64,000 nt of DNA from Candidatus Puniceispirillum sp. (GTDB taxonomy: Bacteria; Pseudomonadota; Alphaproteobacteria; Puniceispirillales; Puniceispirillaceae): positions 28,753-92,752 of the forward strand of contig JAOEVD010000008.1 of assembly GCA_028383305.1 (NCBI GenBank). Reading direction: 5' to 3'. Below the pieces are notes generated by a model. The model searched no databases and was not told the origin of the DNA. It saw only the letters and a program-made list of their open reading frames with translations. A program made the position numbers and the translations under genes. Positions 50,569 to 63,940 of the stretch are shown piece after piece; position 1 is the first letter of the stretch; every line of letters begins with the position of its first letter.

Positions 50569-50645
50569 CGGAGCGTAGCGCAGCCTGGTAGCGCACTATA
50601 CTGGGGGTGTAGGGGTCGTGGGTTCAAATCCCGCCGCTCCGACCA
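50569..50645 (+). tRNA. tRNA-Pro (GGG), probable island attachment site
   Basis: A 77-base cloverleaf: CGGAGCG pairs with CGCTCCG, the anticodon loop CTGGGGG sits between CTATA and TGTAG, and the CCA is encoded. A recombinase gene begins 90 bases after its 3' end, the classic position for integration. I found no second copy of the tRNA 3' end within the window. Confidence 0.94.
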
Positions 50646-50735
50646 AAATTAAATAAATAAAATCAATATAATAAAGGAATAGCCATTCGGCTGTTCCCGC
50701 CCTTACTGTCACAATTTGTCACAGGAGGCGCTAAA

Positions 50736-51660
50736 ATGGCATCCATTAGACACCGAAATGGACGTTTTCAAGCACAGGTCAGAATGCTTGGTAAAACAAA
50801 ATCTGCAACCTTCCTATCACGCGCTGACGCTAATAAATGGGCGACACTAATTGAGGCCGACCTCATCGGCAGCGAAGATACAAGACTTATGTATAAGCCC
50901 GATTGTGTTGCTGAAATATTACAGCGCTATCTCAATGGCGGATCACGCCAGAATCAGGGTCATGAGGTTGAAAAATACATAATTGGACTAATGCTGAGAG
51001 AAAGCTGGGTTCTAATGCCAATTCAGCGCCTTTCTGCCTCACATATCGCGGAATACAAAGACCGCCGGCTTCGCAGCATTAAACCTTCGAGTTTTAACCG
51101 CCAGTTCAGTGTGCTCAAAGTTGCCTGTGCCGTTGCCAGGGATGAATGACTTTGGGAGTTTGATGACAGGTTCCTGAAAATCCGCCGCGCACGCGTCAAT
51201 GCTGTAAAAATCCCTCGTAGAATTAGCAATGATGAGTTCATCAGGCTAATCGAGGCGTGTGCTCAGTGTAAAACAGCAAAAATGCGCCACTTGATAACCC
51301 TTGCACGCGAAACAGGTATGAGGAGGGGGGAACTTTGCTCGCTCGATAAGCGCTCAGTTTGTTTTGATAGAGGAATAATAAACATCGAAGCCACCAAGAC
51401 TGGCTTTCCAAGGGTCGTTCCCATGACAGCTGATGCAAAAGCTGCCGCTATGGCGCTAGCTCAGCTCAGTTCCAGCAAAGGTTTGCTGGATATGACGCCA
51501 AATGCCGTAAGGATGAGCTTTGAGAGGTGCCGGGCGCGTGCAGGGCTCAATCGCATCAGGTTTCATGACTTCAGGCACGAAGCATTAAATTCTTTCATTA
51601 GGGGTAAAAACATTGAGTTTTACCCCTAATTAGCGACACTAGGACATCAATGCTGTTTCC
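50736..51660 (+). pseudogene. tyrosine recombinase (phage-type integrase), disrupted
   Basis: The N-terminal SAM-like arm (MASIRHRNGRFQAQVRMLGK) and the catalytic domain are in one frame, interrupted by TGA at 51147-51149, where a Trp codon would continue the protein. The catalytic Arg is in ARETGMRRGEL and the His-x-x-Arg in HDFRHEA. A second stop (TAA at about 51627) precedes LATLGHQ, which looks like the normal GH box, after which the catalytic Tyr region is lost. A strong CAGGAGG lies upstream of ATG. So this is a dead integrase next to its tRNA target. Confidence 0.85.
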
Positions 51661-52375: not shown

Positions 52376-53341
52376 CTATACAGATTTGAGTTCACTAAGA
52401 GCAGTCGTGTGTTCTGGTCCAAGACCACAGCATCCACCAAATATGGAGCATCCACTTTTCTGCCAGCCTGTAGCGTATTCCAGCAGCACCTGAGGTTCAA
52501 TTATGTCTTCGAATTGCCAATTAGGCGCCACAAAATATCCACTGTCAGGGTAAGCCATCAACATACCTGAAAAATTACTCTTTATTACAACTAATGCGGC
52601 CTCAATTGCGTCAACTGAAGTGTGCATTATACCGATTGCATCGAAATCATATTGGCAAGCTTGAATCACAATGTCCTCAAACGAGACAGAAGTATCGTGC
52701 CAAGAGGTCAATGGAGCCGTCGGGATTTCTCTTTTTGCTGATAACCCACACCAGATTGGCAGACTTGATTTGTTTGCACACTGAAAGAGGGGAGCCATTC
52801 GCGCTGGAATTGACATCATCTCAAGCAGAATTAGGTCAACCCCTTCGTTCTCAAAAATTGATATCATCTCGCTGTAACAATCTGATAGCTCTCCGGGTGA
52901 AATATCAGGTTGTTGCTTCGCGCCCTCAACCCCATCAGTAAATGGAAGCACGTGAGATATGGAGCCGGCAACAGACACATTCGCTCTGGTTTTCTGCCTT
53001 GCTTCAATTGCAGCGGAAATATTTAACCGATTAATCTGTTGAACTTCATTACCAAGTCCTGCTGGTCCGAGCATAAGGCGAGAACTTGCATAGCTATTCA
53101 CAGTGATGATGTCAGCTCCAGCCTCAATATAGGCAATGTGGGTCTCAACTAGTTTCTCATAATCATCAATAGCGACGCACCCCGACCATTGCCCGTTGCG
53201 CATTTTGGCTCCTCTGCGCTCAAGCTCGGTTGATACCCCGCTGTCTAGGATTATTGGTATCAGTTGTTCTCGCTTTTTAATCAATTCTGCGTAGAAGTAT
53301 GCCATTTTTCTAATCTGCCTGATTTTTGGAGCTAGCCGCAT
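52376..53341 (-). CDS. homocysteine S-methyltransferase-family protein with altered zinc site
   Basis: A TIM-barrel methyltransferase of about 320 residues in the Pfam S-methyl_trans group, beginning LDSGVSTELERRG. Family members hold zinc with Cys from a GVNC segment and a later Cys-Cys. Here the later pair is kept (GGCCGLGPEH, Cys304-Cys305), but the first is IGIMHTS, so Asn-Cys became Met-His240. His could still bind metal, so activity may persist with changed chemistry. The methyl donor is unknown. ATG 53341 or 53305 could start; neither has a good ribosome site. Hairpin repeat A lies about 95 bases upstream. Confidence 0.78.
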   Translation of the reverse strand: MRLAPKIRQIRKMAYFYAELIKKREQLIPIILDSGVSTELERRGAKMRNGQWSGCVAIDDYEKLVETHIAYIEAGADIITVNSYASSRLMLGPAGLGNEVQQINRLNISAAIEARQKTRANVSVAGSISHVLPFTDGVEGAKQQPDISPGELSDCYSEMISIFENEGVDLILLEMMSIPARMAPLFQCANKSSLPIWCGLSAKREIPTAPLTSWHDTSVSFEDIVIQACQYDFDAIGIMHTSVDAIEAALVVIKSNFSGMLMAYPDSGYFVAPNWQFEDIIEPQVLLEYATGWQKSGCSIFGGCCGLGPEHTTALSELKSV

Positions 53342-53434
53342 TTTCAGTCACTTCGCTATGGCGCTTCTTGCGAACAAAGCAGCTCGGTGATGAGGTGGAT
53401 TTTGAGCCCACCAAAGGGACATTGATACCGTGCC

Positions 53435-53497
53435 ACAAAACAAGACCAGCGCAAAGGCTAGCGGTAAGTGACACCCCCACTGCTATAGCAATGGCAT
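53435..53497 (-). repeat. island leader element, copy A (hairpin plus 18-bp motif)
   Basis: Minus-strand order: the 18-bp motif CCATTGCTATAGCAGTGG (53477-53494), then the hairpin CTAGC-CTTTGC-GCTGG (53447-53462) followed by T-rich TCTTGTTTTGTGGCA. It lies between the alpha/beta hydrolase stop and the methyltransferase start. Confidence 0.75.
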
Positions 53498-53527
53498 CCT
53501 GACATTTATCTCCGCGTATACATTATC

Positions 53528-54460
53528 TTATGTTTTCGTTGTAACAGCATTTACGCCAAAACTTGTTTCTGGCTCTTTGACTGGGCGAGTTGGCAAACCG
53601 TAATGCCTTGACCTTTCAAAAATTGGCAGTCCAGAAGCCAGCATAGAATTTAGAAACCAGACCATGGCATTCGTCACATCTCTTGGTCTTTCTCTTGTGA
53701 CGAAATGCCCGGAATCAATTACTAATATTGCCTGAAGCCCAGGTAAATGTTCCTCCATGCCGTGACAGTATTCTATTGGTTGCCGGGGGTCGTGTTCACC
53801 ATGAATGTAAAGAATAGGCATTGTAAATTTGGATAAATCTATTGGCTTACTTTTACGAATATCCCGAAAATACCGAGACACAGCATCGCCAGTTCCAGGT
53901 TCGGAAAATTCTTCAATAATCTCATCTATTTCTTGCTCTTGAGGAAAAAGTTCTGGCTTACATGAGCTTTCAAACCAAACTCTCACATAAGCCTCCGCAC
54001 GATTCATTAACTTTGCGGCCTCCTGGTGGTTTTCAGCATTCCACTGGTGGTGTAAAGAGTTCCGTGGGTCATACGTGTGGAGCGACAAGCAACATCTGAT
54101 GTAACGTTTAACCCGGTGCGATGCTTGGCTAATGATATTATCTGATATGGCTACACCCCAGTCGTGTCCCGCTAGGTGGAAATTATCCACGCCAATCTCA
54201 TCTAATAAAGAAAGCACTTCTCCTGCGACGTGGGTCATGGAGTAGTCACCATCCTTCTTTCCAGATTTCCCATAACCTTTAAGGTCTGGTGCGATTACGC
54301 GAAATTGCCTTGCCAAACTTGGGATTTGGTGTTTCCAGCACTGCCAACTTTCTGGAATTCCATGGAGCAACACAATTGGAGTTCCGGCGCCCTGTTCTAC
54401 CCAGTGCCATTCCTGTCCAGAGATTTTTGTGAAGTGATGTTTTAGGTCCGTCTTTACCAT
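53528..54460 (-). CDS. alpha/beta hydrolase of the epoxide hydrolase/dehalogenase type
   Basis: A 310-residue soluble hydrolase. The nucleophile is Asp100 in LAGHDWG, an aspartate elbow used by epoxide hydrolases, haloalkane and fluoroacetate dehalogenases, with the oxyanion HGIPESW near residue 33, an acid in GEHDPRQP and the base His in DSGHFVTRERP. The residues that separate epoxide hydrolases from dehalogenases cannot be judged by eye. ATG 54460 has only a weak ribosome site. Leader element B lies 62 bases upstream. Confidence 0.8.
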   Translation of the reverse strand: MVKTDLKHHFTKISGQEWHWVEQGAGTPIVLLHGIPESWQCWKHQIPSLARQFRVIAPDLKGYGKSGKKDGDYSMTHVAGEVLSLLDEIGVDNFHLAGHDWGVAISDNIISQASHRVKRYIRCCLSLHTYDPRNSLHHQWNAENHQEAAKLMNRAEAYVRVWFESSCKPELFPQEQEIDEIIEEFSEPGTGDAVSRYFRDIRKSKPIDLSKFTMPILYIHGEHDPRQPIEYCHGMEEHLPGLQAILVIDSGHFVTRERPRDVTNAMVWFLNSMLASGLPIFERSRHYGLPTRPVKEPETSFGVNAVTTKT

Positions 54461-54521
54461 CAGCGCTAATCCAAATTCATTTACTATATAATTTTTGAGC
54501 CAAAAGCTTCCTTTAACCTTG

Positions 54522-54585
54522 ACACAAAATAAGCCCAGCGCAAAGACTGGAGAATCTGCTGCCTCCTTTATAGCGATGGCGCCCC
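54522..54585 (-). repeat. island leader element, copy B (hairpin plus 18-bp motif)
   Basis: Minus strand: GCGCCATCGCTATAAAGGAG (a divergent 18-bp motif, 54563-54583), then hairpin CCAGT-CTTTGC-GCTGG (54535-54550) and GCTTATTTTGTGTCA. It lies upstream of the alpha/beta hydrolase start. Confidence 0.7.
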
Positions 54586-54724
54586 TTCAGCTATTTTTAG
54601 TGCGTTATGAAAATCCAGTCGGTTACATGCCTTAAAAAGTGATTTTTGCTATGCGATGTTGCTAAACAATCAATAAAAGTTAATAAAATATCACGAACCC
54701 AGCTCTGTGAAACAAAGGTATTAA

Positions 54725-54988
54725 ATGGTTAGGCTAATACTAATTGCCACTGCAGTTTTTCTTGCTCTTTATCTTTTGTCTCGACGCTTCAATGCCAGCC
54801 CAAAAAGCAATGAAGCCAAGGACGACGTTGTTGGCCCACGTTCAGGTGGTTTCTTGATTACATTTATCACAGCGGTTGCAATTTTGTCGGTTATATTCAT
54901 CTTGTCGCGGTTGGGCGTCAGTTTGGGTGGGTTGCTTCAAAAAGCTCTCGCTTTCTTTCCTGTCATACTTGCGCATTTACCTTTCTAG
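54725..54988 (+). CDS. small two-helix membrane protein
   Basis: An 87-residue protein with a hydrophobic segment at residues 3-19 and two more between 43 and 85, joined by a basic and polar loop (RRFNASPKSNEAKDD). I recognise no family. AAAGG precedes the ATG. It diverges from the alpha/beta hydrolase and is followed 93 bases later by the HDAC-like gene on the same strand. Confidence 0.6.
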   Translation: MVRLILIATAVFLALYLLSRRFNASPKSNEAKDDVVGPRSGGFLITFITAVAILSVIFILSRLGVSLGGLLQKALAFFPVILAHLPF

Positions 54989-55034
54989 GATTGGGTCATC
55001 CCCTAATAAAGGCCGCAGGCCAGTCAAGTAATAA

Positions 55035-55055
55035 AAGACCAGGCAAATGGTCGAA
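55035..55055 (-). repeat. possible divergent hairpin copy
   Basis: Minus strand GACCA-TTTGCC-TGGTC followed by TTTTATTA, similar in shape to the island leader hairpins but with a different loop and no minus-strand gene downstream. It is included only as a weak candidate. Confidence 0.3.
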
Positions 55056-55081
55056 TTGAAGCGTTGGGACTGTTCTGATAA

Positions 55082-56002
55082 ATGAGAAATATTAGATATC
55101 CAATTATCTACCATCCATCATATGACATACCGCTGCCTGAGAACCATCGCTTTCCCGGGACAAAGTATAGCGCACTGATTAAAGAGCTGGAGACTACAGG
55201 GATAATAGAAAATTATTTGAAATATGTGCCGAAGCCAGCCACCGCAAAGTATCTATCCATTGCACATGACCCACTTTATATTCAAGCCATTGAAACAGGT
55301 AACCTGTCAAAACAGGAGCAAACAAAATTAGGTTTGCCATGGAGTAAAACACTCGTCCAGCGTTCTTTTTTGGCGCCAAATGGCACTTTGCTGGCTGCAC
55401 AACTAGCACTTCAAACCGGGATAGCCTGTCATGCTGCTGGGGGAACACACCATGCCCATTGGGATTTTGGTGCGGGTTTTTGCGTATTTAATGACCTTGC
55501 TTATGCAGCCCGTGCATTGATTGCTATGAAATTGGCAAAAAGAATTTTAATTTTGGATTGTGATGTACACCAGGGAGATGGAACTGCAAGTATACTCTCA
55601 AATGACAGGGACATTTTCACCTGCTCAATCCATTGCGCTGAGAACTACCCCCCGAAGAAAGCCAAGAGTAAGTTAGACTTTCCAATCTTAAGAGGCTCTG
55701 ACGATGAGGAATATCTGTCCGTGCTCGCTCAATGCCTCATCGAAATGGACCGCATTAATTTTGCGCCTGATTTGGTACTTTATGATGCTGCAGTCGACGT
55801 TCACAACAATGATAAGCTTGGCCTTTTAAAAATGACTTCAGTCGGTATTTATCAAAGAGATAAAGTTGTCTTGTCTCATTTCAAGAACCAGCAGGTTCCA
55901 ATCGCCACCACGATTGGAGGTGGTTATGGAGAAACGCACAAAGAGGTGGCACAGCGTCATAGTATCATTTTCGCCGCTGTGCAGTCAGTTTTTCAAAACT
56001 AA
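55082..56002 (+). CDS. histone deacetylase-family (AcuC/acetylpolyamine amidohydrolase-like) protein
   Basis: A 306-residue zinc-dependent deacetylase. The active-site His pair is GGTHHAHWD (His123, His124), the metal ligands are in LDCDVHQGDGTAS (Asp161, His163), and YDAAVDVHNNDKLGLL supplies the last Asp and the loop that is usually DAGVDPH-DRLG. Bacterial members act on acetylpolyamines, acetoin-related or small acetyl-amides; substrate unknown. The ATG at 55082 has a weak ribosome site. Confidence 0.85.
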   Translation: MRNIRYPIIYHPSYDIPLPENHRFPGTKYSALIKELETTGIIENYLKYVPKPATAKYLSIAHDPLYIQAIETGNLSKQEQTKLGLPWSKTLVQRSFLAPNGTLLAAQLALQTGIACHAAGGTHHAHWDFGAGFCVFNDLAYAARALIAMKLAKRILILDCDVHQGDGTASILSNDRDIFTCSIHCAENYPPKKAKSKLDFPILRGSDDEEYLSVLAQCLIEMDRINFAPDLVLYDAAVDVHNNDKLGLLKMTSVGIYQRDKVVLSHFKNQQVPIATTIGGGYGETHKEVAQRHSIIFAAVQSVFQN

Positions 56003-56085
56003 TTATCTGATGTTAGTTTGGCTATTAAAGGCGCCACTTGCCGCCTCAGAGGTGATGATAACAAACCAATTAGTTAGGCCAGACA

Positions 56086-57087
56086 TTAACCGTCATAATG
56101 TAGCCCACCACTCACTCGGTGCCAAAGCCTGAATAGATGACGCTTTTTAGATGGTTCGTCATGGTCAATAAAATCAGTACGAAAATGCCCCAGCTCATGG
56201 TTATTGAGATATTGCACATCTCCTCGTGACAGGGGAGCTTCAATCCAGAGGTCACTTGAAGCTGTGACCTCATCAATAGAATCGAGTGCATTTTTCAGCA
56301 GGGAGTCCATTTCAAATCCGCCTACCTGGTAGCCTTTTCTTACCAGAGAACTGTTTGCACGGCAGCGCAATTTACCGTCCTGCCATGTAAACATTGGTGC
56401 AAAAGATGTTTTTTCAGCGCCAGGTTTGTGCTCTGCCTGACGGTCAAAGTGAACCGGCTGGTAAAGTCGTTTTAGTTCTTTTGGGAATTTAGCCTCCATC
56501 CGCTCGTGAACAGTGTACAGGCTACAAAAACGGCTGAGGCCCCCCTCCTTTGCTGGATATTTGCACAACAGGCCAACATAATCAGGAACAGTGACGCCAA
56601 ACGCGTTGTCTGTATGAAAAACTAACTCAACGTTTGTTGCGGAGCCTCGCACGCCATAACCGAACTTTTTACCAGTATCGGTAACGTCATAAATCATGGT
56701 GCCATCCCATTTCTGGGCAACGTTTTGTCCTATCAACTGGCCAAGTGTCCAATAAATGTCAACCATTTGGTCTATATCAAACTTGTCTAGGGGGAACTTG
56801 TCGACAACTGCAAACCCAAGACCATTGTCACAGATATGTTTTGCTTTCCTGTAGGCAGCACTCAAGCACGGTATTTCGAACTGTTGAGGGTTCCTGAGGA
56901 GTGTTGGCAATGGCTTTGAACGCATTTCATCTGCCATTGTCGCAATCTCTTTGAATGCGCCGTCCGAGAGTTTCACTGTCCAGTCATCTCTTTTCAAGTT
57001 CGACGCTAACCAGCCTCTGCCGGCCGCCGTTGGAATGTTTTCCAATTCGTTAAAAGTTTCAGAGCTGAGGTCCATCACGCCGTCCAT
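56086..57087 (-). CDS. TauD/TfdA-family Fe(II)/2-oxoglutarate dioxygenase
   Basis: A 333-residue non-heme iron oxygenase. The facial triad starts at FHTDNAFG (His158, Asp160), the distal His is in the NNHELGHFRTD region (about 297-301), and the 2-oxoglutarate anchor is the RHLFRLW segment near 316-322. The substrate is unknown; members act on sulfonates, carnitine-like compounds and others. GGAGGA before ATG is excellent. Leader element C is about 60 bases upstream. Confidence 0.85.
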   Translation of the reverse strand: MDGVMDLSSETFNELENIPTAAGRGWLASNLKRDDWTVKLSDGAFKEIATMADEMRSKPLPTLLRNPQQFEIPCLSAAYRKAKHICDNGLGFAVVDKFPLDKFDIDQMVDIYWTLGQLIGQNVAQKWDGTMIYDVTDTGKKFGYGVRGSATNVELVFHTDNAFGVTVPDYVGLLCKYPAKEGGLSRFCSLYTVHERMEAKFPKELKRLYQPVHFDRQAEHKPGAEKTSFAPMFTWQDGKLRCRANSSLVRKGYQVGGFEMDSLLKNALDSIDEVTASSDLWIEAPLSRGDVQYLNNHELGHFRTDFIDHDEPSKKRHLFRLWHRVSGGLHYDG

Positions 57088-57144
57088 TTAATCCTCCCAA
57101 AATATTTTTTTTATTTGTATCCCAACCAACAACTTGCAATACGT

Positions 57145-57190
57145 TGCCATACAAAAACTCCAGCGCAAAGGCTGTCATCATTTATGGGAC
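57145..57190 (-). repeat. island leader element, copy C
   Basis: Minus-strand hairpin ACAGC-CTTTGC-GCTGG (57159-57174, four pairs secure) followed by AGTTTTTGTATGGCA, about 75 bases before the dioxygenase start. Confidence 0.65.
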
Positions 57191-57278
57191 TTTCTTATCA
57201 AACAACTAACGCTATGTAAAAAATCATTCTGCTATTTGTTTTTTAGTTAAGAAAATAATTTTGATGTTAAAAAATCCT

Positions 57279-57307
57279 TTGTCCGGTGAATATTCATGAT
57301 GTAGGAT
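57279..57307 (+). promoter_or_regulatory. putative promoter for the DsrE-family gene
   Basis: TTGTCC (57279-57284) and TAGGAT (57302-57307) with a 17-base spacer, about 40 bases before the ATG at 57346. A TAAAAT a few bases later is an alternative -10. Confidence 0.35.
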
Positions 57308-57345
57308 AAAATATAGTAAAAATCACATATATCATGGAGGAATAA

Positions 57346-57800
57346 ATGCTTAAAAATTATTTCTTGCGTTAATTGCCTTCTTTAGCATTGGCTTAGCTGG
57401 AATTAGTGCCGAAGCAAGTGAACGGTATGGCAAACAAAAAGTTGCATACCATATTAACTATCCTGGTGGTGATGGGGATAAGAAATATCTTGGTGCAATG
57501 CGTAATATTCAGAATCACATCAATGCTGTTGGAGCCACAAATATGGAGATAAAAGTGGTTATTCATGGAAACGGCATAGGCTTGCTTCAAAGCGCAAAGT
57601 CAAATGTTAAACTTCAAAGCAATATCGCCAACCGAAAATCGCAAAATGTCGCATTCAGTGTTTGCGCTAACACGCTGAAAGGTAAAAAACTAAATCCTGG
57701 AAAGAACCTGTATGACGTTTTTGAGGAAGATATTGTTCCCAGCGGCGTCGCGGAGCTTAGTCACCTTCAGCAACAAGGGTTCACCTACATAAAACCATAA
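57346..57800 (+). pseudogene. exported DsrE-family protein with a single-base frameshift at an A run
   Basis: The ATG at 57346, with GGAGGA upstream, reads MLKN and stops after eight codons, but the next frame is open from there to 57800. One extra A in the AAAAA run at 57352-57356 would restore a protein starting MLKKLFLALIAFFSIG, a clean signal peptide, then the DsrE-like domain (KVAYHINYPGGDGDKKYLGA, VVIHGNGIGLLQ and a Cys in FSVCANTL), about 150 residues. Such proteins take part in sulfur or thiol transfer. It could be a true mutation, phase variation or a sequence error. Confidence 0.7.
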
Positions 57801-57872
57801 TACACATCGTTTGCAATGGGGAATGAGCCGTTACTCTAAGTTGCTCCAGTGCAAACCTAATAAAAAAACTAT

Positions 57873-57896
57873 GTAACTATTATAACAATGGAGCGC
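57873..57896 (-). repeat. 18-bp near-palindromic motif, copy 4
   Basis: Minus strand GCGCTCCATTGTTATAATAG, containing TGTTATAAT, which is also a perfect extended -10. Just beside it (57899-57922) a second inverted repeat CCCGCCAT/ATGGTGGG lies. It sits between two convergent genes. Confidence 0.6.
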
Positions 57897-58030
57897 CCCA
57901 CCATAATATTAGATGGCGGGCTTTCGAAGGCATTCTTACTGGCATGCAAGATGGAATAGCTACCAGCAAAAGATAGCACTTAGACAGAGGCCTTTTCAGA
58001 CCACCACCGAGGTGATTAGGGTGTGTAAAT

Positions 58031-59671
58031 TCAATCCTTAATTAGGGTTTGAGTCTTTGCCCAAGCATCATCCAGTGCGTTGAAGTCAGACCGGAACTGA
58101 ACGCCTCGGCTTTCAGTGCGCCGGGAAGCTGCTTCTATCATAAGATTCGCCAACCGTGCCATTTGCTTTAACTCGAAGACGTCTCTGTTTTGTTCGCCAA
58201 GGTCTTTAATTTCAAGCCACAATTTGGAGAGCTGTTTTTGGCCTTCGGTTAGGCTCAACTCATTTCTTATAATGCCTAAATTATTGCCCACAATATTTTT
58301 AACTCTGTCCATCAATGCTTTAATCTCAATATTGGTATTTAAGGCCTGACTTTCTCCTTCAATGAGGTTCAACGACCTATTCAGCTGCTCGGAGCTGAGA
58401 GCTTTTTGAGCCGCAAAACTCTGGCGCTGGCGCTGCGCATTCTCAGCATAACCAATAGCGTTTAATCCCGCAGTTCGACCCATAACAACACAAGCTGTCA
58501 GGCCATTGCCGCTCAGCCGACCTGCTCCGTGGATTCCAGTTGCATTCTCTCCAGCAGCAAAAACACCGGGTATTGAAGTTTGGGCGTTAGTGTCTATCAC
58601 AATGCCTGCCAAAACAGAGTGGGCTGCAGGTATGACCTCTATCATTTCGGTTTGGTAGTCGCAGCCAGCTTCAGTTAACTTATCCAGGGTTGTGGTGCCT
58701 TGACTGCCCTCAAATTCCTTCCACGCAACGTCCGAGAAATGAGTGCAATCTAGGTAAATTGGCCCTTTGTTATTGAAAATTTCTTGTTCAACCAATCGCA
58801 GAACTTCCGCGCGACCGATTTGTTCAGATTTCTTATTTGGGAAATGAAGCTCTAAGAGGTCTTCGCCAAGGCTGTTTATTAGCTTTCCGCCCCTTGATAG
58901 AAATGGAGCCATGCCTGCAATACGAAGTATTTTCGACTTAACGCGGTAGATCAGCGTAAATTCTACAAATTCCAGATTTTTGAGTGCTGCCCCGATATCA
59001 TAGCCAAGCATTATGCTGGTGCCGATATTACCTTCGTCACCACTTACAGTTGGGAAAAGACCTGTCGCACCCCCCGCAGCTAGAACAGCGGCGCCAGCAG
59101 CTATTGTAATCGTTTGGCGACCTTGAAGCGTCACTAAAAACTGATGCCCCTCGATTGGCTTGATGTCTCTTACAATTGTCCTATTTAAAAATATCACTCC
59201 TCGAGCTTTTGCTTGACGGAGCAAAGCTGACACAATCGCGTGACCACCTCCAATTGCTGAAACGGCTCTTGGGCAGGAGTTTCCCGGAGCGTTCAACTGA
59301 ATGTAGCCATTATCTTCTGCTCGGCTAAATTCAACGCCTAGGCATTCCAACCATCGGACTGCAGAGGTTGCCTGTTTGGTAACAAAATTTACAAGTTCAG
59401 GGTCACCAATGTGATAACCAACTTCAAGTGTGTCATGGGCGTGCTGGTTGGGAGTGTCCGGCACAGGGCGGGTTTCTAAATCACCGTGGCCAAAAGCTGC
59501 AGCCAAAATCCCAGCAGCCTTGGCCGAAGAGCCAGAATTTCCGGTAATACCCTTGTTGATTAGAAGGACAGTGGCTCCATTATCTGCCGCGCTGATTGCG
59601 GCAGAGAGTGCGGCAAGGCCACCGCCAACCACTAACACATCACAATAAAAATTAGATTTTTCAGAGTTCAA
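58031..59671 (-). CDS. FAD-dependent oxidoreductase of the fumarate reductase/L-aspartate oxidase family
   Basis: A 546-residue flavoprotein. The N-terminal Rossmann fold is DVLVVGGGLAALSAAISAA, SGSSAKAAGILAA follows, and the C-terminal FAD site is FAAGENATGIHGAGRLSGNG. A C-terminal helical domain, as in SdhA/NadB, completes it. The order and length match the succinate dehydrogenase/fumarate reductase flavoprotein group, but no iron-sulfur partner subunit lies nearby, so an oxidase or a stand-alone dehydrogenase is more likely. The start is TTG at 59671 with a poor ribosome site. Leader element D is 40 bases upstream. Confidence 0.8.
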   Translation of the reverse strand: MNSEKSNFYCDVLVVGGGLAALSAAISAADNGATVLLINKGITGNSGSSAKAAGILAAAFGHGDLETRPVPDTPNQHAHDTLEVGYHIGDPELVNFVTKQATSAVRWLECLGVEFSRAEDNGYIQLNAPGNSCPRAVSAIGGGHAIVSALLRQAKARGVIFLNRTIVRDIKPIEGHQFLVTLQGRQTITIAAGAAVLAAGGATGLFPTVSGDEGNIGTSIMLGYDIGAALKNLEFVEFTLIYRVKSKILRIAGMAPFLSRGGKLINSLGEDLLELHFPNKKSEQIGRAEVLRLVEQEIFNNKGPIYLDCTHFSDVAWKEFEGSQGTTTLDKLTEAGCDYQTEMIEVIPAAHSVLAGIVIDTNAQTSIPGVFAAGENATGIHGAGRLSGNGLTACVVMGRTAGLNAIGYAENAQRQRQSFAAQKALSSEQLNRSLNLIEGESQALNTNIEIKALMDRVKNIVGNNLGIIRNELSLTEGQKQLSKLWLEIKDLGEQNRDVFELKQMARLANLMIEAASRRTESRGVQFRSDFNALDDAWAKTQTLIKD

Positions 59672-59710
59672 TTAAGTATCTGCCAGCATTTGTCTCAAAA
59701 AAATCTGCTG

Positions 59711-59746
59711 TAAAGTAAAGCCAGCGCAAAGGCTGGCCTTACTTTA
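59711..59746 (-). repeat. island leader element, copy D (long hairpin)
   Basis: Minus strand: a 15-base-pair stem, 59732-59746 with 59711-59725, around the six-base loop CTTTGC, with one G-T pair that exists only on this strand. A T run (TTTTTTT) follows about ten bases later, so it could also end the GYD transcript. Confidence 0.75.
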
Positions 59747-59764
59747 ACAACGTTAGTTCATCAT

Positions 59765-60088
59765 TTAAGCACCAGGTGCGCGATATGCACCGGTTATTTT
59801 GTTTGCTCGACCGGCTATGTCGTTCATATCAATATATTCGAGCATCTCCAATTCGTTTAAAGCCCCTGATGCAGCCACCAAAACTTTCACAGCTGCTGCA
59901 TCTTCGAAGCTCGAAACCTCTGCAACAACCGCTATATCGTACTTTCCTCTCAGGAATTGCAGGTCAATAAAATTACCACCCGACTTTTTTACTATGGCAG
60001 AAATTGCAGCACGCCTGTCATCTTTTGGATTTTTCAAAAACCCAGCAAGGCCAGCATTGGAGTATTTTCCTAAAAATAAAAACTTCAT
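59765..60088 (-). CDS. GYD-domain protein
   Basis: A 107-residue protein with the GYD pattern: FLFLGKYSNAGLAGF, the RRAAISAIVKKSGG helix, and the GKYDIAVVAEVSSFEDAA strand-helix. Function is unknown; the ferredoxin-like fold suggests a small-molecule or protein partner. ATG 60088 follows AGGAG; the frame is open further upstream without a site. It is followed by the flavoprotein gene on the same strand, about 95 bases on. Confidence 0.78.
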   Translation of the reverse strand: MKFLFLGKYSNAGLAGFLKNPKDDRRAAISAIVKKSGGNFIDLQFLRGKYDIAVVAEVSSFEDAAAVKVLVAASGALNELEMLEYIDMNDIAGRANKITGAYRAPGA

Positions 60089-60119
60089 CTTTCTCTCCTT
60101 GTTTAGTCTGAAAATTTTG

Positions 60120-60220
60120 CCACAAAATAAGGCCATTGCAAAGGCTGGCCGAGTTTAGGGAGGAAAGAGTTAGATTCAGCTTCAAGAGTGGCAGCGCAAT
60201 ATGACCGGTTTATGTATGGG
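60120..60220 (-). repeat. island leader element, copy E (long form)
   Basis: Minus-strand hairpin GGCCA-GCCTTTGCAA-TGGCC (60131-60150) followed by TTATTTTGTGGCA, 32-60 bases before the GYD start. The upstream 70 bases resemble copies F and G, including CTAAC and TTCCTCC segments. Confidence 0.75.
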
Positions 60221-60408
60221 CTGCGGTAATTTTGAGGCTTGTTACTAAATGCGTTTGCGTAAAAGTTTTCATAACGCGGGACATAGGTATACCGCTGCAC
60301 ATATTGAGCTGGCAGGGTGCATAAAGGGATGCCTTGGTTAAGGTAGCTTAAGAATTCGTAAATTTTAGTGTATCGTAGTCAGCTATCACTTCTTTGTTTT
60401 TGTTAACT
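60221..60408. other. rest of the divergent intergenic region
   Basis: About 190 bases between copy E and the promoter of the plus-strand gene, part of a 348-base gene-free stretch from 60089. I see nothing else here. Confidence 0.4.
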
Positions 60409-60417
60409 TGCTATAAT
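60409..60417 (+). promoter_or_regulatory. extended -10 promoter element
   Basis: TGCTATAAT (60409-60417) is a perfect extended -10, about 20 bases before the ribosome site GGAGG and ATG at 60437. The -35 region is weak, as is usual for this class. Confidence 0.5.
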
Positions 60418-60436
60418 TTATGGAGGTGTTTTAAAG

Positions 60437-61018
60437 ATGGTCGAAAACGCAAAGTCCACCCAAATAGAGCAATTAGAGCAATGGGCCAATAACGCTGCTG
60501 TTTCTGTCTCAGCCTCATTGGTGTTTGGTAGGGATAGGGCAAAGGAAATTGCGGAGCCATTATTAATGGTTCTTTTTACGATAACTGCAAATGATTACAA
60601 AAAAGCACTAGAAGTCATTGGAAAAATTGAGTCATTTCCAATCAAAAGAATATTTTTAGAACAATTTAAATATTGTTACATTCTCAACACAGGCTCAGAG
60701 GAGTTTTCCACTTTAGTTTTAAACACTGATTTTTCCAATCAGCAAATGGCTGATGAATATGACTCTGTTCTTCTGAAGCTTTTGAATGAAAACGATAAAG
60801 ACTTTGCATTAGTCAGTGAAAAACTAAGCGCACTTCCGATAAGAGCTAAGCGTGTTGCCATGAAAAGGATTCATAGCAGAGAGTTTAGCAAATTTAGGCA
60901 GATTAAAATCAGACCCAAACAGTTGTTGAACAACGCCAAACAACCTCTTATCAAGACTTGGTATTGGGTTTTAATAACTATTGTTTTGGCTGTTCTGATA
61001 ATTATAAAAATTGAGTGA
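60437..61018 (+). CDS. C-terminally membrane-anchored protein of unknown function
   Basis: A 193-residue protein. The N-terminal 150 residues are soluble, helix-rich and charged, with many Lys and Glu; the last 20 residues (WYWVLITIVLAVLIIIKIE) form one hydrophobic helix, giving a tail-anchor topology. I recognise no family. GGAGG lies ten bases before ATG. It is divergent from the GYD gene and convergent with the small exported protein. Confidence 0.65.
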   Translation: MVENAKSTQIEQLEQWANNAAVSVSASLVFGRDRAKEIAEPLLMVLFTITANDYKKALEVIGKIESFPIKRIFLEQFKYCYILNTGSEEFSTLVLNTDFSNQQMADEYDSVLLKLLNENDKDFALVSEKLSALPIRAKRVAMKRIHSREFSKFRQIKIRPKQLLNNAKQPLIKTWYWVLITIVLAVLIIIKIE

Positions 61019-61166
61019 AGTCGAGTATTTTGATTGGCGCGATATTTTCAATACCCTAAGTGGATGAATACGTTCGCCAACAAGCCATAGAATTTGGCGG
61101 GCAGCACAATGTGGGAGGTTTATCCTCGTGGTGAAGTCATTTTATGGCTACATCGGTAATACTTCC

Positions 61167-61190
61167 CCACTGTTATAGCAATGGGGCGCC
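61167..61190 (-). repeat. 18-bp near-palindromic motif, copy 5
   Basis: Minus strand GGCGCCCCATTGCTATAACA then GTGG; stem CCCCA-TG/CA-TGGGG. A second small inverted repeat (CCATC/GATGG, 61189-61207) adjoins. It sits between two convergent genes. Confidence 0.65.
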
Positions 61191-61246
61191 ATCATGTATT
61201 TCGATGGGGGCAAAGACTGTGGTGCCAGACAACAAAGCATGAAGTC

Positions 61247-61513
61247 CTAGTCAGTTAACCTGAGTAAGTTAAGCAAACGTTCTCTGAGCATGAGAAGCCT
61301 CCGCTCAAGAAATTCATTTTCTCTTTCTAATGCAACAACCTGCTCTTGTAACTTTTGATCTTTGTGTCCAGCAGCGCCAGTTGCAAGGTCATTCTTACAA
61401 TAGTTGTAAGCAGTAATTTCAGCCGCAGTATTGCCATTTAAAACGCACTTGTGCGCCCAAGCTATCTGGCTGAACAGGTTTAGAAAGATGGATATCAGAA
61501 TGATGCGTGTCAT
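61247..61513 (-). CDS. small exported coiled-coil protein
   Basis: An 88-residue protein. A signal peptide (MTRIILISIFLNLFSQIAWA) is followed by a short Cys-containing segment (HKCVLNGN, with a second Cys in NYCKND) and a C-terminal leucine-rich heptad region from about residue 55 (QEQVVALERENEFLERRLL) that should form a coiled coil. No family recognised. The AOX gene ends about 50 bases upstream on the same strand. Confidence 0.6.
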   Translation of the reverse strand: MTRIILISIFLNLFSQIAWAHKCVLNGNTAAEITAYNYCKNDLATGAAGHKDQKLQEQVVALERENEFLERRLLMLRERLLNLLRLTD

Positions 61514-61563
61514 TGGAATTTCTCGATTGCGTCTATAAGAAATTTTTAAACAGTTAAAATGGC

Positions 61564-62166
61564 TTACCCTTTTGCCAAAGCGTCCGCCATTTCGTGATTG
61601 GTGTCGCTGTGTCCTTGTTCATCTTGCCTAACAGCAATTAGGACATCTCTGAGTTTAGCTGTCTTAGCCAGCCCATAATAGTCTTTTGCAATATCTGGCG
61701 CATCAATGTTAGTAGTTTTGCCTGAGTCTATTTGTTCTAGGTATTCTGTGTAACTAATTACAGCCTGCTCTTCGAAATAACCAACCATACGGTGGGCTGC
61801 TTTTGGAAAAAATACGTACAGCATGAAGTAGAAATGCCAAAAAAAGAATTGGGCTAATAGAACGATAGCCCTCTCCAAAGAGTTCGGTTTGGCAATTTCA
61901 ATAAAAATCATCAAATGCATACGCTCATTTTCTGCCTCATCGAGCAAGGCCTTTATCCAGCCCCTGTCATCTTGTTTCATTCTCCTCAGAGAGCTTAGAT
62001 GACACCACATCCCAGCAACCATCCCAGGAACTCCAGCAACAGTCTCTAACACAACCGCTCTGTGGCCGTAGCGTTTTGCGAAGAAGGTGTCAGCGAACCA
62101 CCTAAAAAACATTGTTACAGCTAATGCAAACCTGTCAGAAAAATCACTTGGAACGCGATGTTGCAT
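61564..62166 (-). CDS. aox: alternative oxidase (AOX)
   Basis: A 200-residue di-iron ubiquinol oxidase that passes electrons from ubiquinol to O2 without pumping protons. All metal ligands are present: Glu41 in LETVAGVPG, Glu81 and His84 in EAENERMH, Glu132/133 in FEEQAVISYTEY, and Glu183 and His186 in RQDEQGHSD. It is short, lacking any N-terminal extension, as in bacterial AOX. ATG 62166 follows GAGGT. A 6-base-pair hairpin lies in its leader. Bacterial AOX genes are sparse and often acquired by transfer. Confidence 0.93.
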   Translation of the reverse strand: MQHRVPSDFSDRFALAVTMFFRWFADTFFAKRYGHRAVVLETVAGVPGMVAGMWCHLSSLRRMKQDDRGWIKALLDEAENERMHLMIFIEIAKPNSLERAIVLLAQFFFWHFYFMLYVFFPKAAHRMVGYFEEQAVISYTEYLEQIDSGKTTNIDAPDIAKDYYGLAKTAKLRDVLIAVRQDEQGHSDTNHEMADALAKG

Positions 62167-62212
62167 CTTACTTACCTCGAATATTAGTTGTTTGGTATAA
62201 GGACTGAATTCT

Positions 62213-62232
62213 GAGCCTGTGTTTATAGGCTC
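62213..62232 (-). promoter_or_regulatory. leader hairpin upstream of the alternative oxidase
   Basis: GAGCCT and AGGCTC form a perfect six-base-pair stem with an eight-base loop, about 45-65 bases before the aox start on the minus strand. It is GC-rich in an AT-rich leader and is not followed by a T run. Confidence 0.5.
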
Positions 62233-62350
62233 AAAATGGTTATGAGATGTTTAACTCAACAACAAAACCAAGCTGACCCAAGTTTTGTAAGGGAGTAGGG
62301 CGGTTTGGTGTCCTGATTTGACAGCTGGTGCCGCTCGACCCGCTTCTTAA

Positions 62351-62445
62351 GTGGTCTGAATTTCTGAAAAAACAAGACCAGCGCAAAGGCTAGCCGAGTT
62401 TGGGAGGAGAGGGTTAGTTTCAGTTTAGCAGTCGGTAGGGCAATT
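62351..62445 (-). repeat. island leader element, copy F (long form)
   Basis: Minus-strand hairpin GGCTAGC-CTTTGC-GCTGGTC (62374-62393), seven pairs including two G-T pairs, followed by TTGTTTTTTCAGA. It begins about 60 bases after the PhyH stop and lies about 200 bases before the aox start. Confidence 0.75.
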
Positions 62446-62453
62446 CAAGAAAC

Positions 62454-63281
62454 CTAATATTTCCCTATTTTCTTGGCGCCACGATAAAATATTGCTTTCA
62501 GCGCCTCATTTGCTTTGTCGCGAAATTCGACATCTTGCTCGGCCATAATGGACGATGGCCGGGGGGTATGCTGATGGTATCTATAAGTGTCTGAGCCTCG
62601 TGCTTGTTGGACAAATATTTTTCCGTACACAGAATCTACGTTTGTCCCGATGTATGACTGAATAGCGAAGCCAATTCGACGGTTTTTGGAGCTATTATGG
62701 CCAGAGCCGTGGACAACCCACGGGTGGTGTAGGGATAATTGACCTGCTTTGAGTGCAACTGGAATTGTATCGTTTTTTGGAACATTTTGAACAGTTTGTC
62801 CGCGAGTAAGAAGATTCTCCTCGTCAAAAGTATCCAAGTGTTCGCGGGCGCCTTCTAAATGACTGCCAGGCCACATATACATACAACCGTTTTCGGTTGT
62901 GACATCGGACAATGCCAGCCAAGCAGTTACCCAATTTTCTGGTTCCAATCCTATGTAACGTGCATCCTGATGCCAGCTTATGAACCCTCGCTGCTCTGGT
63001 TCTTTGATGAACAATGTAGTTCCGCCAACTAAAAAATCTTTACCGATAAGGGTTTCGACAGCATCAAGGATGTCGGGATTGTGAACGATTTTGTCAAAAA
63101 GTGAAGTTACATAATGAACATTGTTGCGGTTGCGACCGGTTACTGCTTCTGGATACGATGCTTCCAAACCTTCAAGTTCTTGTCTAATTGCTGCAGCCTC
63201 TTCCCGTGAATAGATATCAATCGGAGCAATGAAGCCGTCACGATTGTACAAGTCGATTTGTTCTTTTGTTAAATGGGACAC
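62454..63281 (-). CDS. phytanoyl-CoA dioxygenase-family protein
   Basis: A 275-residue Fe(II)/2-oxoglutarate oxygenase. The iron triad starts at WHQDARYIG (His104, Asp106) with distal His191 in VVHGSGHN, and the 2-oxoglutarate Arg is near 201. Substrate unknown; related marine proteins act on varied small molecules. The start is GTG at 63281 with AGGAGG six bases upstream. Confidence 0.87.
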   Translation of the reverse strand: MSHLTKEQIDLYNRDGFIAPIDIYSREEAAAIRQELEGLEASYPEAVTGRNRNNVHYVTSLFDKIVHNPDILDAVETLIGKDFLVGGTTLFIKEPEQRGFISWHQDARYIGLEPENWVTAWLALSDVTTENGCMYMWPGSHLEGAREHLDTFDEENLLTRGQTVQNVPKNDTIPVALKAGQLSLHHPWVVHGSGHNSSKNRRIGFAIQSYIGTNVDSVYGKIFVQQARGSDTYRYHQHTPRPSSIMAEQDVEFRDKANEALKAIFYRGAKKIGKY

Positions 63282-63397
63282 CGAATCCTCCTGAACGAAC
63301 CATTGACAGGTTGTTCAAAAGGCAGGGGAAAGTCAACGAGACAGACGAGACAGAAGTTATGATTTGTGCATAGAGACTTTTGGTTGACTAAAATTGG

Positions 63398-63799
63398 CTA
63401 GCTATTGTCGATAGACTTATAAATATTCAATTCCCTCCAATATTTTTCTGCAAGTGCATTTGCGTCACTAATCCTCAAAGCAAGTCCTCGAATGATTGCA
63501 TTGCATATTGGGTCAGCTTGAGCCATTTTTGCCCGAAATACCGGCTCATCCAGCTTGATGAGCATCGCGTTAGTCTTTGCTCTCACAGTCACGGTTCTTG
63601 GTTCTGAGGTGATGAGGCCAACTTCGCCAAATAATTCACCTTCGTTTAAAACGCCGAGGAGCATTCCCTGTTTGCTTTCTATCTGAACTGAGCCACTATG
63701 TACTAAATAGACGCTATGACTGGCATCGTTGACACTGTAAATTATATCGCCTGCCTTAACTGCCATCTTGGCAAAGTTTTTTAAGCTTATTGGCTTCAT
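63398..63799 (-). CDS. cyclic nucleotide-binding domain protein
   Basis: A 133-residue stand-alone cNMP-binding domain. The phosphate-binding cassette is GELFGEVGLITSEPRTVTVRA, with the conserved Gly-Glu and Arg, preceded by VYLVHSGSVQIES. It has no DNA-binding or enzyme domain, so it must act through a partner. GAGGAGG precedes ATG 63799. Leader element G is about 35 bases upstream. Confidence 0.87.
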   Translation of the reverse strand: MKPISLKNFAKMAVKAGDIIYSVNDASHSVYLVHSGSVQIESKQGMLLGVLNEGELFGEVGLITSEPRTVTVRAKTNAMLIKLDEPVFRAKMAQADPICNAIIRGLALRISDANALAEKYWRELNIYKSIDNS

Positions 63800-63830
63800 T
63801 AGCGAACCTCCTCAAAAGTTACCATGTCAC

Positions 63831-63940
63831 ATATATTGAACAACGCAAAGGCTGGAGGAGTTTGAAGAGGAATGGGTTAGGTTCAGTTTCGACGCTACGC
63901 TGATATCGTGACGGGTTTATGGCTGGGGTTTTGTCTTTGT
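63831..63940 (-). repeat. island leader element, copy G (long form)
   Basis: Minus-strand hairpin CCAGC-CTTTGC-GTTGT (63840-63855), four pairs with one G-T pair, followed by TCAATATATGTGACA, about 40 bases before the cNMP gene start. The preceding 80 bases are similar to copies E and F. Confidence 0.7.

Follow-up and report, generated by a model that had tools for sequence, protein, structure and literature searches.

Why does a small hairpin with an unchanging loop recur, always in one orientation, between the genes of a genomic island? The question is raised by a stretch of 64,000 nucleotides (nt) from Candidatus Puniceispirillum sp. (contig JAOEVD010000008.1, positions 28,753 to 92,752; hereafter the window), which is the end of contig C78 in a genome of 2.41 Mb that is 84% complete. 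A first-pass annotation of the bare sequence had placed seven such hairpins (A to G) there in one orientation, and direct reading confirms all seven, each on the minus strand. With a probability of about 0.6, we regard them as lineage-specific terminator-promoter joints, which would lie at the boundaries of island genes that have been shuffled.

Results

Neighbouring genes change at the joints

A covariance model was built from 39 copies, the window's seven among them, and gave 83 matches in 48 loci of the window's genome and its relatives, most of these loci having been fetched because matches were present. Four matches were left out of the counts: that in L051, which a contig end truncates, and the three of lowest significance (E 0.016-0.047). 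This leaves 79 copies, including those of the window, and chance may account for some of the weaker matches. Among 73 joints (six in short loci were excluded), 38 coincide with the end of a homology, against a mean of 8.4 and a maximum of 17 in 300 draws of intergenic controls, and other gene starts do so in 56 of 431 cases. Moreover, 88 of the 404 ends of long alignments fall within 45 nt of a joint (mean 13.6, maximum 27 in 300 intergenic draws), the alignments being not independent and slightly lengthened by the common joint.

A comparison of the flanks of 36 copies shows the same at single loci: genomes G004 and G008 have a left flank of 566 nt (92.8%) in common and different right flanks, each of which recurs elsewhere behind another left flank. 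Fifteen of the 43 gene families behind joints are found there in at least two places. Apart from two families of genus g7, to which we return below, 11 of the 13 recurrent families have at least two left genes called, and in nine of these all left genes differ; two of the four copies of the GYD family have one left gene in common, and the flavoprotein family was counted as differing solely through a spurious frame, its left flank being common to G000 and G006 at the DNA level. A deacetylase-like gene, which scores below its Pfam cut-off (20.3 versus 23.1 bits), stands behind four different left sequences in four genomes. Neighbouring joints within 6 kb have the same orientation in 30 cases and opposite orientations in 2, genomes of the same genus carry the hairpins in one-orientation runs (for instance, seven matches within 4.3 kb in L044, G004), and the downstream gene is on the joint's strand for 64 of the 79 copies; 17 joints lie inside frames of our gene caller. 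Breakpoints at the joints, together with neighbours that change while the joint stays for most recurrent genes of the window's genus, show in these genome comparisons that the joints mark places of island-gene swapping.

A promoter-like tail is tied to the downstream gene

A motif 3' of the hairpin, TRTGGCAnnnT, is present in 56 of the 79 copies. A same-strand start codon lies near 51 of these 56 tails, versus 4 of the 23 copies that lack one (P=3e-10), and 31 of the 51 starts sit 6-31 nt past the motif. When copies are anchored on GGCA-like letters, which the search itself selected and which serve for 58 of the 79, the base four past the anchor is T in 54 of the 58 and the three bases between are variable. 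In 39 of the 56 tail-bearing copies, TTTGCG stands exactly 17 nt ahead of CAnnnT, and 8 of 10 genomes contain the pattern TTTGCG-N12-14-TRTGGCAnnnT, for which the reversed control gave zero matches.

The tail is separable from the hairpin, since it persists ahead of some genes despite a broken inner stem (L268, L278, L301, L285 and L273). The start codon follows 29 nt on in L268 and 23 nt on in L278 (one of the 79), both times with a Shine-Dalgarno sequence, 7 nt on in L301, and in L273 as a GTG 32 nt on that lacks a Shine-Dalgarno sequence. In L285 (1500-1529) the tail, here with no hairpin, lies behind another gene, and a small membrane-protein-like frame begins at a TTG 59 nt on with a Shine-Dalgarno sequence; in L274, the corresponding place of another genome, the motif is kept and no frame of 40 amino acids was found within the 200 nt searched. 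Places that match the pattern in L292, L276, L293 and L303 look like chance. Because the tail is tied to a close start codon and remains where the hairpin is broken, we read it as a promoter and infer that it supplies a −10 region paired with the TTTGCG of the loop as −35. The T that the joint keeps would lie at position −7, where most of the alphaproteobacterial promoters analysed are reported to lack it (PMC8407463). A sigma-54 promoter in the tail was dropped on reading, the second dinucleotide of the consensus not being kept.

The hairpin is likely an intrinsic terminator

In an alignment of all 83 copies fitted to the model structure, the 7-bp stem is paired in 92.8% of cells versus 82.4% in shuffles, both sides have changed in 50 stem cells versus 11.4 (none of 500 shuffles reaches this), and the covariation score is 0.382 versus 0.187. 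A MAFFT alignment of 39 copies, which is not fitted to the structure, gives 12 double-changed cells over nine pairs versus 4.4. Read from the minus strand, the 553 stem cells of the 79 copies contain 47 G·T against 10 A·C. The first-pass annotation had seen this bias, G-U pairs in place of A-C mismatches, in A, B, D, F and G, where it holds on reading, and had proposed selection on a minus-strand RNA; the double changes and the excess of G·T support selection on such a hairpin. In 70 of the 79 copies, at least six of the nine bases that follow the stem are T. Since pairing is kept through double changes, G·T far exceeds A·C and the T tract is so frequent, the hairpin and its T tract likely form an intrinsic terminator. 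A pseudoknot in which the loop would pair with the tail's GCA was considered and dropped, as the loop G changes with no matching changes in the tail (alignment read by eye).

The seven sites in the window

A covariance search of the whole window at E≤0.05, with a model built partly from these copies, returns exactly the seven and no hairpin match in the other 53 kb, in line with the earlier impression that none lies elsewhere. The exact 11-mer CTTTGCGCTGG occurs five times, every time in the island, and with up to two mismatches it has 51 matches in the window versus 30.7 expected, a number that none of 100 shuffles reaches. The loop CTTTGC is unaltered in all seven copies; the first-pass annotation rightly found it unchanged in six, and what differs in E is the right arm of the stem, where the two innermost pairs are broken, and not the loop. 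In an Rfam scan of the window, tRNA is the only family that reaches its cut-off.

Five of the hairpins are followed by a tail with TRTGGCA or a near form. Hairpin A (53444..53463), with its T-rich tract and promoter-like tail TGTGGCACGGT at 53423..53443, precedes an S-methyltransferase gene (52376-53341), and B (54533..54552; tail TGTGTCAAGGT, 54512..54532) precedes an alpha/beta hydrolase gene (53528-54460). C (57158..57177), which retains its inner four pairs, has the tail TATGGCAACGT at 57137..57157 before a TauD-family gene (56086-57087); E (60131..60150) has TGTGGCAAAAT at 60110..60130 before a GYD gene that starts near 60088; and G (63838..63857), whose outer pairs are lost, has TGTGACATGGT at 63817..63837 before a gene for a cyclic nucleotide (cNMP)-binding protein (63398-63799). 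The remaining two lack the promoter-like tail, although the first-pass annotation had a tail follow each copy: D (59719..59738), with a stem extended to about 15 pairs, lies behind the GYD gene and has a flavoprotein gene (58031-59671) next, and F (62376..62395) lies behind a PhyH gene. The start codon, which the first-pass annotation put 35-100 bases away for six copies, lies at varying distances: about 45-80 nt from B, C, E and G, about 55 nt from D (a TTG) and 110-145 nt from A, whose start is uncertain; F does lie before aox, about 215 nt away.

Some further features adjoin the array. A tRNA-Pro(GGG) gene (50569..50645, plus strand) lies upstream of it, adjoined by the remnant of a tyrosine recombinase, apparently decayed and in two reading frames (50736..51629 on the plus strand, or 50661-51629 taken more widely), to which the hairpin array points opposite. 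A gene of the histone deacetylase family (55082-56002) is on the plus strand within the minus-strand array. On the minus strand at 61150-61200, behind an 88-amino-acid gene, reading reveals a class-1 sequence (CCATTGCTATAACAGTGG) with no hairpin, which precedes several joints elsewhere.

Kinship with αR8 small RNAs

The αR8 family (RF00519, suhB), which includes MmgR of Sinorhizobium and SisA-D of Caulobacter, pairs in an Hfq-dependent manner; PMC12559287 describes a single-stranded 10-mer, a Rho-independent terminator at fixed spacing and a weak hairpin upstream of the 10-mer. The 10-mer UUUCCUCCCU is present with at most two mismatches in 34 of 78 copies (ten exact; one of the 79 was too close to a contig end to be scored) and at about 1% of random positions, and in 32 of the 34 it stands exactly 6 nt from the stem, the spacing of the αR8 family. 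In the window it is exact in E (TTTCCTCCCT, 6 nt ahead of the stem) and degraded in F and G. The αR8-like body of E occupies 60151..60239 on the minus strand, its 5' limit being the end of its alignment with copy L001; sequence alignment finds a partial relative at F (CTCCTCCCAAACTCGG, 62396..62426) and a degraded one at G (63858..63926), both on the minus strand. E, F and G have 46-59 nt 5' of the hairpin in common pairwise, and E matches another copy in the genome over up to 132 nt, hairpin included.

A permissive search with RF00519 gave 35.0 and 34.8 bits for island copies in genus g7, about 22-32 in others and 19.2 for E. All 15 genomes tested have a match at E≤0.1, and in six it exceeds the cut-off of 41, as does a core copy in the window's own genome (42.1 bits). 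The higher-scoring core copies have the identical 10-mer and 6-nt spacing and a terminator of another kind; reading shows a TTGACT/A-N17-CATATA-like promoter upstream of them. The hairpin upstream of the 10-mer is strong in the G002 copies and weak or unclear elsewhere; among 12 sequences of g7 no conserved upstream hairpin was found, and the terminator stem alone is predicted, with none of its seven pairs double-changed. Four near-identical small-RNA-like bodies, one of them cut by a contig end, were seen in G002 (L151 sites 45, 7348 and 10038; L210 site 1439), each with an 11-bp hairpin ahead of the 10-mer and with differing right flanks. Control of the next gene's Shine-Dalgarno sequence by the 10-mer is not claimed, the enrichment being weak (at least six complementary bases in 8 of 53 joint genes versus 24 of 427 others, P=0.017).

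E-type sites thus resemble αR8 RNAs in their 10-mer, 6-nt spacer and terminator hairpin, and the joints differ from them by a short 7-bp stem with a CTTTGC loop, the tail motif, the island setting and scores below the cut-off. We consider the E-type site a putative αR8-like small RNA, and the joint is best read as a terminator, derived from that of αR8 or similar to it, which is fused to a promoter and kept between exchangeable island genes.

Distribution

At E≤0.01 the covariance model matches 31 of the 61 genomes of the window's bacterial family; searching relatives, as had been suggested at first, therefore yields further copies, with base pairing conserved. At E≤1e-4, it matches 20 of the 136 genomes searched in the order (18 inside the family, 2 outside) and 3 of the 289 searched in the class, all three inside the family. 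A search of named genomes with the exact pattern, which possibly did not cover records near the window's genome, returned a single record, a SAR116 metagenome-assembled genome, and from this one named match we infer that the window's lineage is SAR116. Two exact patterns gave zero matches in viral contigs. As far as these searches reach, the 46-nt hairpin-joint family is restricted to this alphaproteobacterial lineage. None of the listed titles and abstracts of openly licensed papers describes such terminator-promoter joints, which is a weak negative.

Discussion

Taken as terminator-promoter joints, the hairpin and T tract would end an αR8-like small RNA at copies that have one and would stop read-through at the others, while the next gene would be started from a −10 region (CAnnnT behind TGn) and a −35 element (the loop's TTTGCG) that are 17 nt apart. 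A −35 element within the loop would explain why the loop is invariant. The mRNA of the next gene would start past the hairpin, because the gene-linked part is the promoter-like motif 3' of it, which is kept where the inner stem is broken. A gene that travels with its joint would be insulated from the neighbour at its new site and would bring a start signal of its own. The simplest route of exchange would be homologous recombination, for which the repeated joints and small-RNA bodies would supply the matching sequences.

Several observations weigh against this reading. The tail motif stands before only 1 of 397 other genes, equal to antisense; it is therefore not a general promoter motif of these genomes, and would have to depend on a special sigma factor or have some other role. 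The CTTTGC loop is kept in 14 of 23 tail-less copies (46 of 56 with a tail), so that a −35 role alone does not explain it. Likewise, a pure terminator does not explain four copies in which the hairpin is kept despite a poor T tract (L044:15918, L048:117, L049:1004 and L151:10038), and with the upstream gene on the joint's strand in 41 cases and opposite in 34, the joint cannot be regarded simply as the terminator that belongs to a gene. The stem of E is broken and those of C and G are short, hence weak terminators are to be expected there. Five of the seven stem pairs have a double change, which is not above shuffles (153 of 500). Sites A-D lack the 10-mer and have only their 3' end, the hairpin, in common with the αR8-like copies. 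All island copies score under the Rfam gathering score (best 35.0), and since E is below it we term E αR8-like and not a member; RF00519 also matches 8 of 14 control genomes at E≤0.1 (one above the cut-off), hence the argument for kinship rests on the 10-mer. Additionally, the two g7 gene families mentioned above retain the same left neighbour, and gene calls come from our own simple caller and are crude.

Could the islands instead be integron-like cassette arrays, with the hairpin as a site-specific crossover whose 7-bp arms are bound and whose asymmetric CTTTGC loop is the overlap? The homology breakpoints at the joint, the common orientation of neighbouring joints and a loop mostly kept even when there is no tail would suit this, as would the position of the integrases: integrase-like frames occur in 13 joint loci, and in nine the nearest joint follows downstream at a distance of 0.15-5.8 kb and points the same way (it is downstream and opposite in the window and L058, upstream and opposite in L226 and L214). 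We nevertheless consider it unlikely. The stems vary provided that pairing holds, and diversity is high among the five integrases initially found next to joints, only two being alike (91%) and the others about 22-24% identical; in the fetched stretches such a hairpin lies near just 5 of the 67 integrase matches tested. Integron attC arrays resemble the joints in having repeated structured joints of one orientation that separate exchangeable genes and in some cases lie next to a tyrosine recombinase, but attC R boxes (RYYYAAC / GTTRRRY) were found in either order around 0 of 76 sites (0.55% of random positions), no integron integrase (IntI, TIGR02249) exceeds the cut-off in eight genomes, and the joints have a predicted promoter and are found in one lineage. 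Slightly less likely again is a second kind of gene cassette, in which SAR116-type island genes would be gathered and reshuffled by island-borne tyrosine recombinases that cross over at the arms and asymmetric CTTTGC centre of the 46-bp joint; with the terminator and shared promoter of the joint, any captured gene would be insulated and would immediately join one common regulon. A neighbouring integrase as dedicated enzyme was rejected because the proteins are too diverse, and although our comparisons show that genes are exchanged, no dedicated recombinase was found. The draft genome G000 (2.4 Mb) has 27 tyrosine recombinase matches, fragments included, several of them at contig ends. There is also a resemblance to tRNA-linked, tycheposon-like integrative islands with tyrosine recombinases, in that a tRNA stands directly before the integrase in three of the nine integrase-then-joint loci (L046, L050 and L222); the joint differs in that it sits in the cargo and is common to islands at different tRNAs. 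Direct repeats of tRNA 3' ends, sought as integration borders, amounted to one 12-nt match in 14 tRNA places of the fetched stretches.

An attenuator or protein-binding leader, as the first-pass annotation had envisaged, would have transcription start upstream and the hairpin with its T tract act in cis as a conditional terminator or binding element. RNA-level pairing, the invariant loop and the same-strand gene that follows most joints fit such a leader; we hold it improbable, given that the 5' sequence differs for the same gene across genomes (as for the deacetylase-like gene), that the gene-linked part is the promoter-like motif, which some genes retain although the inner stem is broken, and that the hairpin also occurs where no nearby gene start was found. 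Least probable of all is a dispersed repeat with no function for the genes, of the repetitive extragenic palindromic (REP) or miniature inverted-repeat transposable element (MITE) type. REP sequences and bacterial interspersed mosaic elements (BIMEs) are short palindromic intergenic repeats, and the joints are like them in this respect, being multi-copy, mostly intergenic and island-bound in the cases examined. They differ in their fixed relation to the downstream gene, in orientation and distance, and no Y1 transposase (PF01797) was found in eight genomes; structural covariation across genera likewise speaks against such a repeat. Of the three options first offered, a mobile repeat carrying a terminator comes closest to the terminator-promoter joint, which adds the promoter-like tail and the breakpoints; that account had also lacked the shared sequence 5' of E, F and G and the αR8-like bodies.

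The terminator-promoter joint suggests how streamlined ocean bacteria may express newly acquired genes without a host promoter, the joint bringing both insulation and a start signal. It would also connect mobile cargo with a widespread family of small RNAs, and the movement of small cargo genes between islands becomes testable at defined 46-bp junctions.

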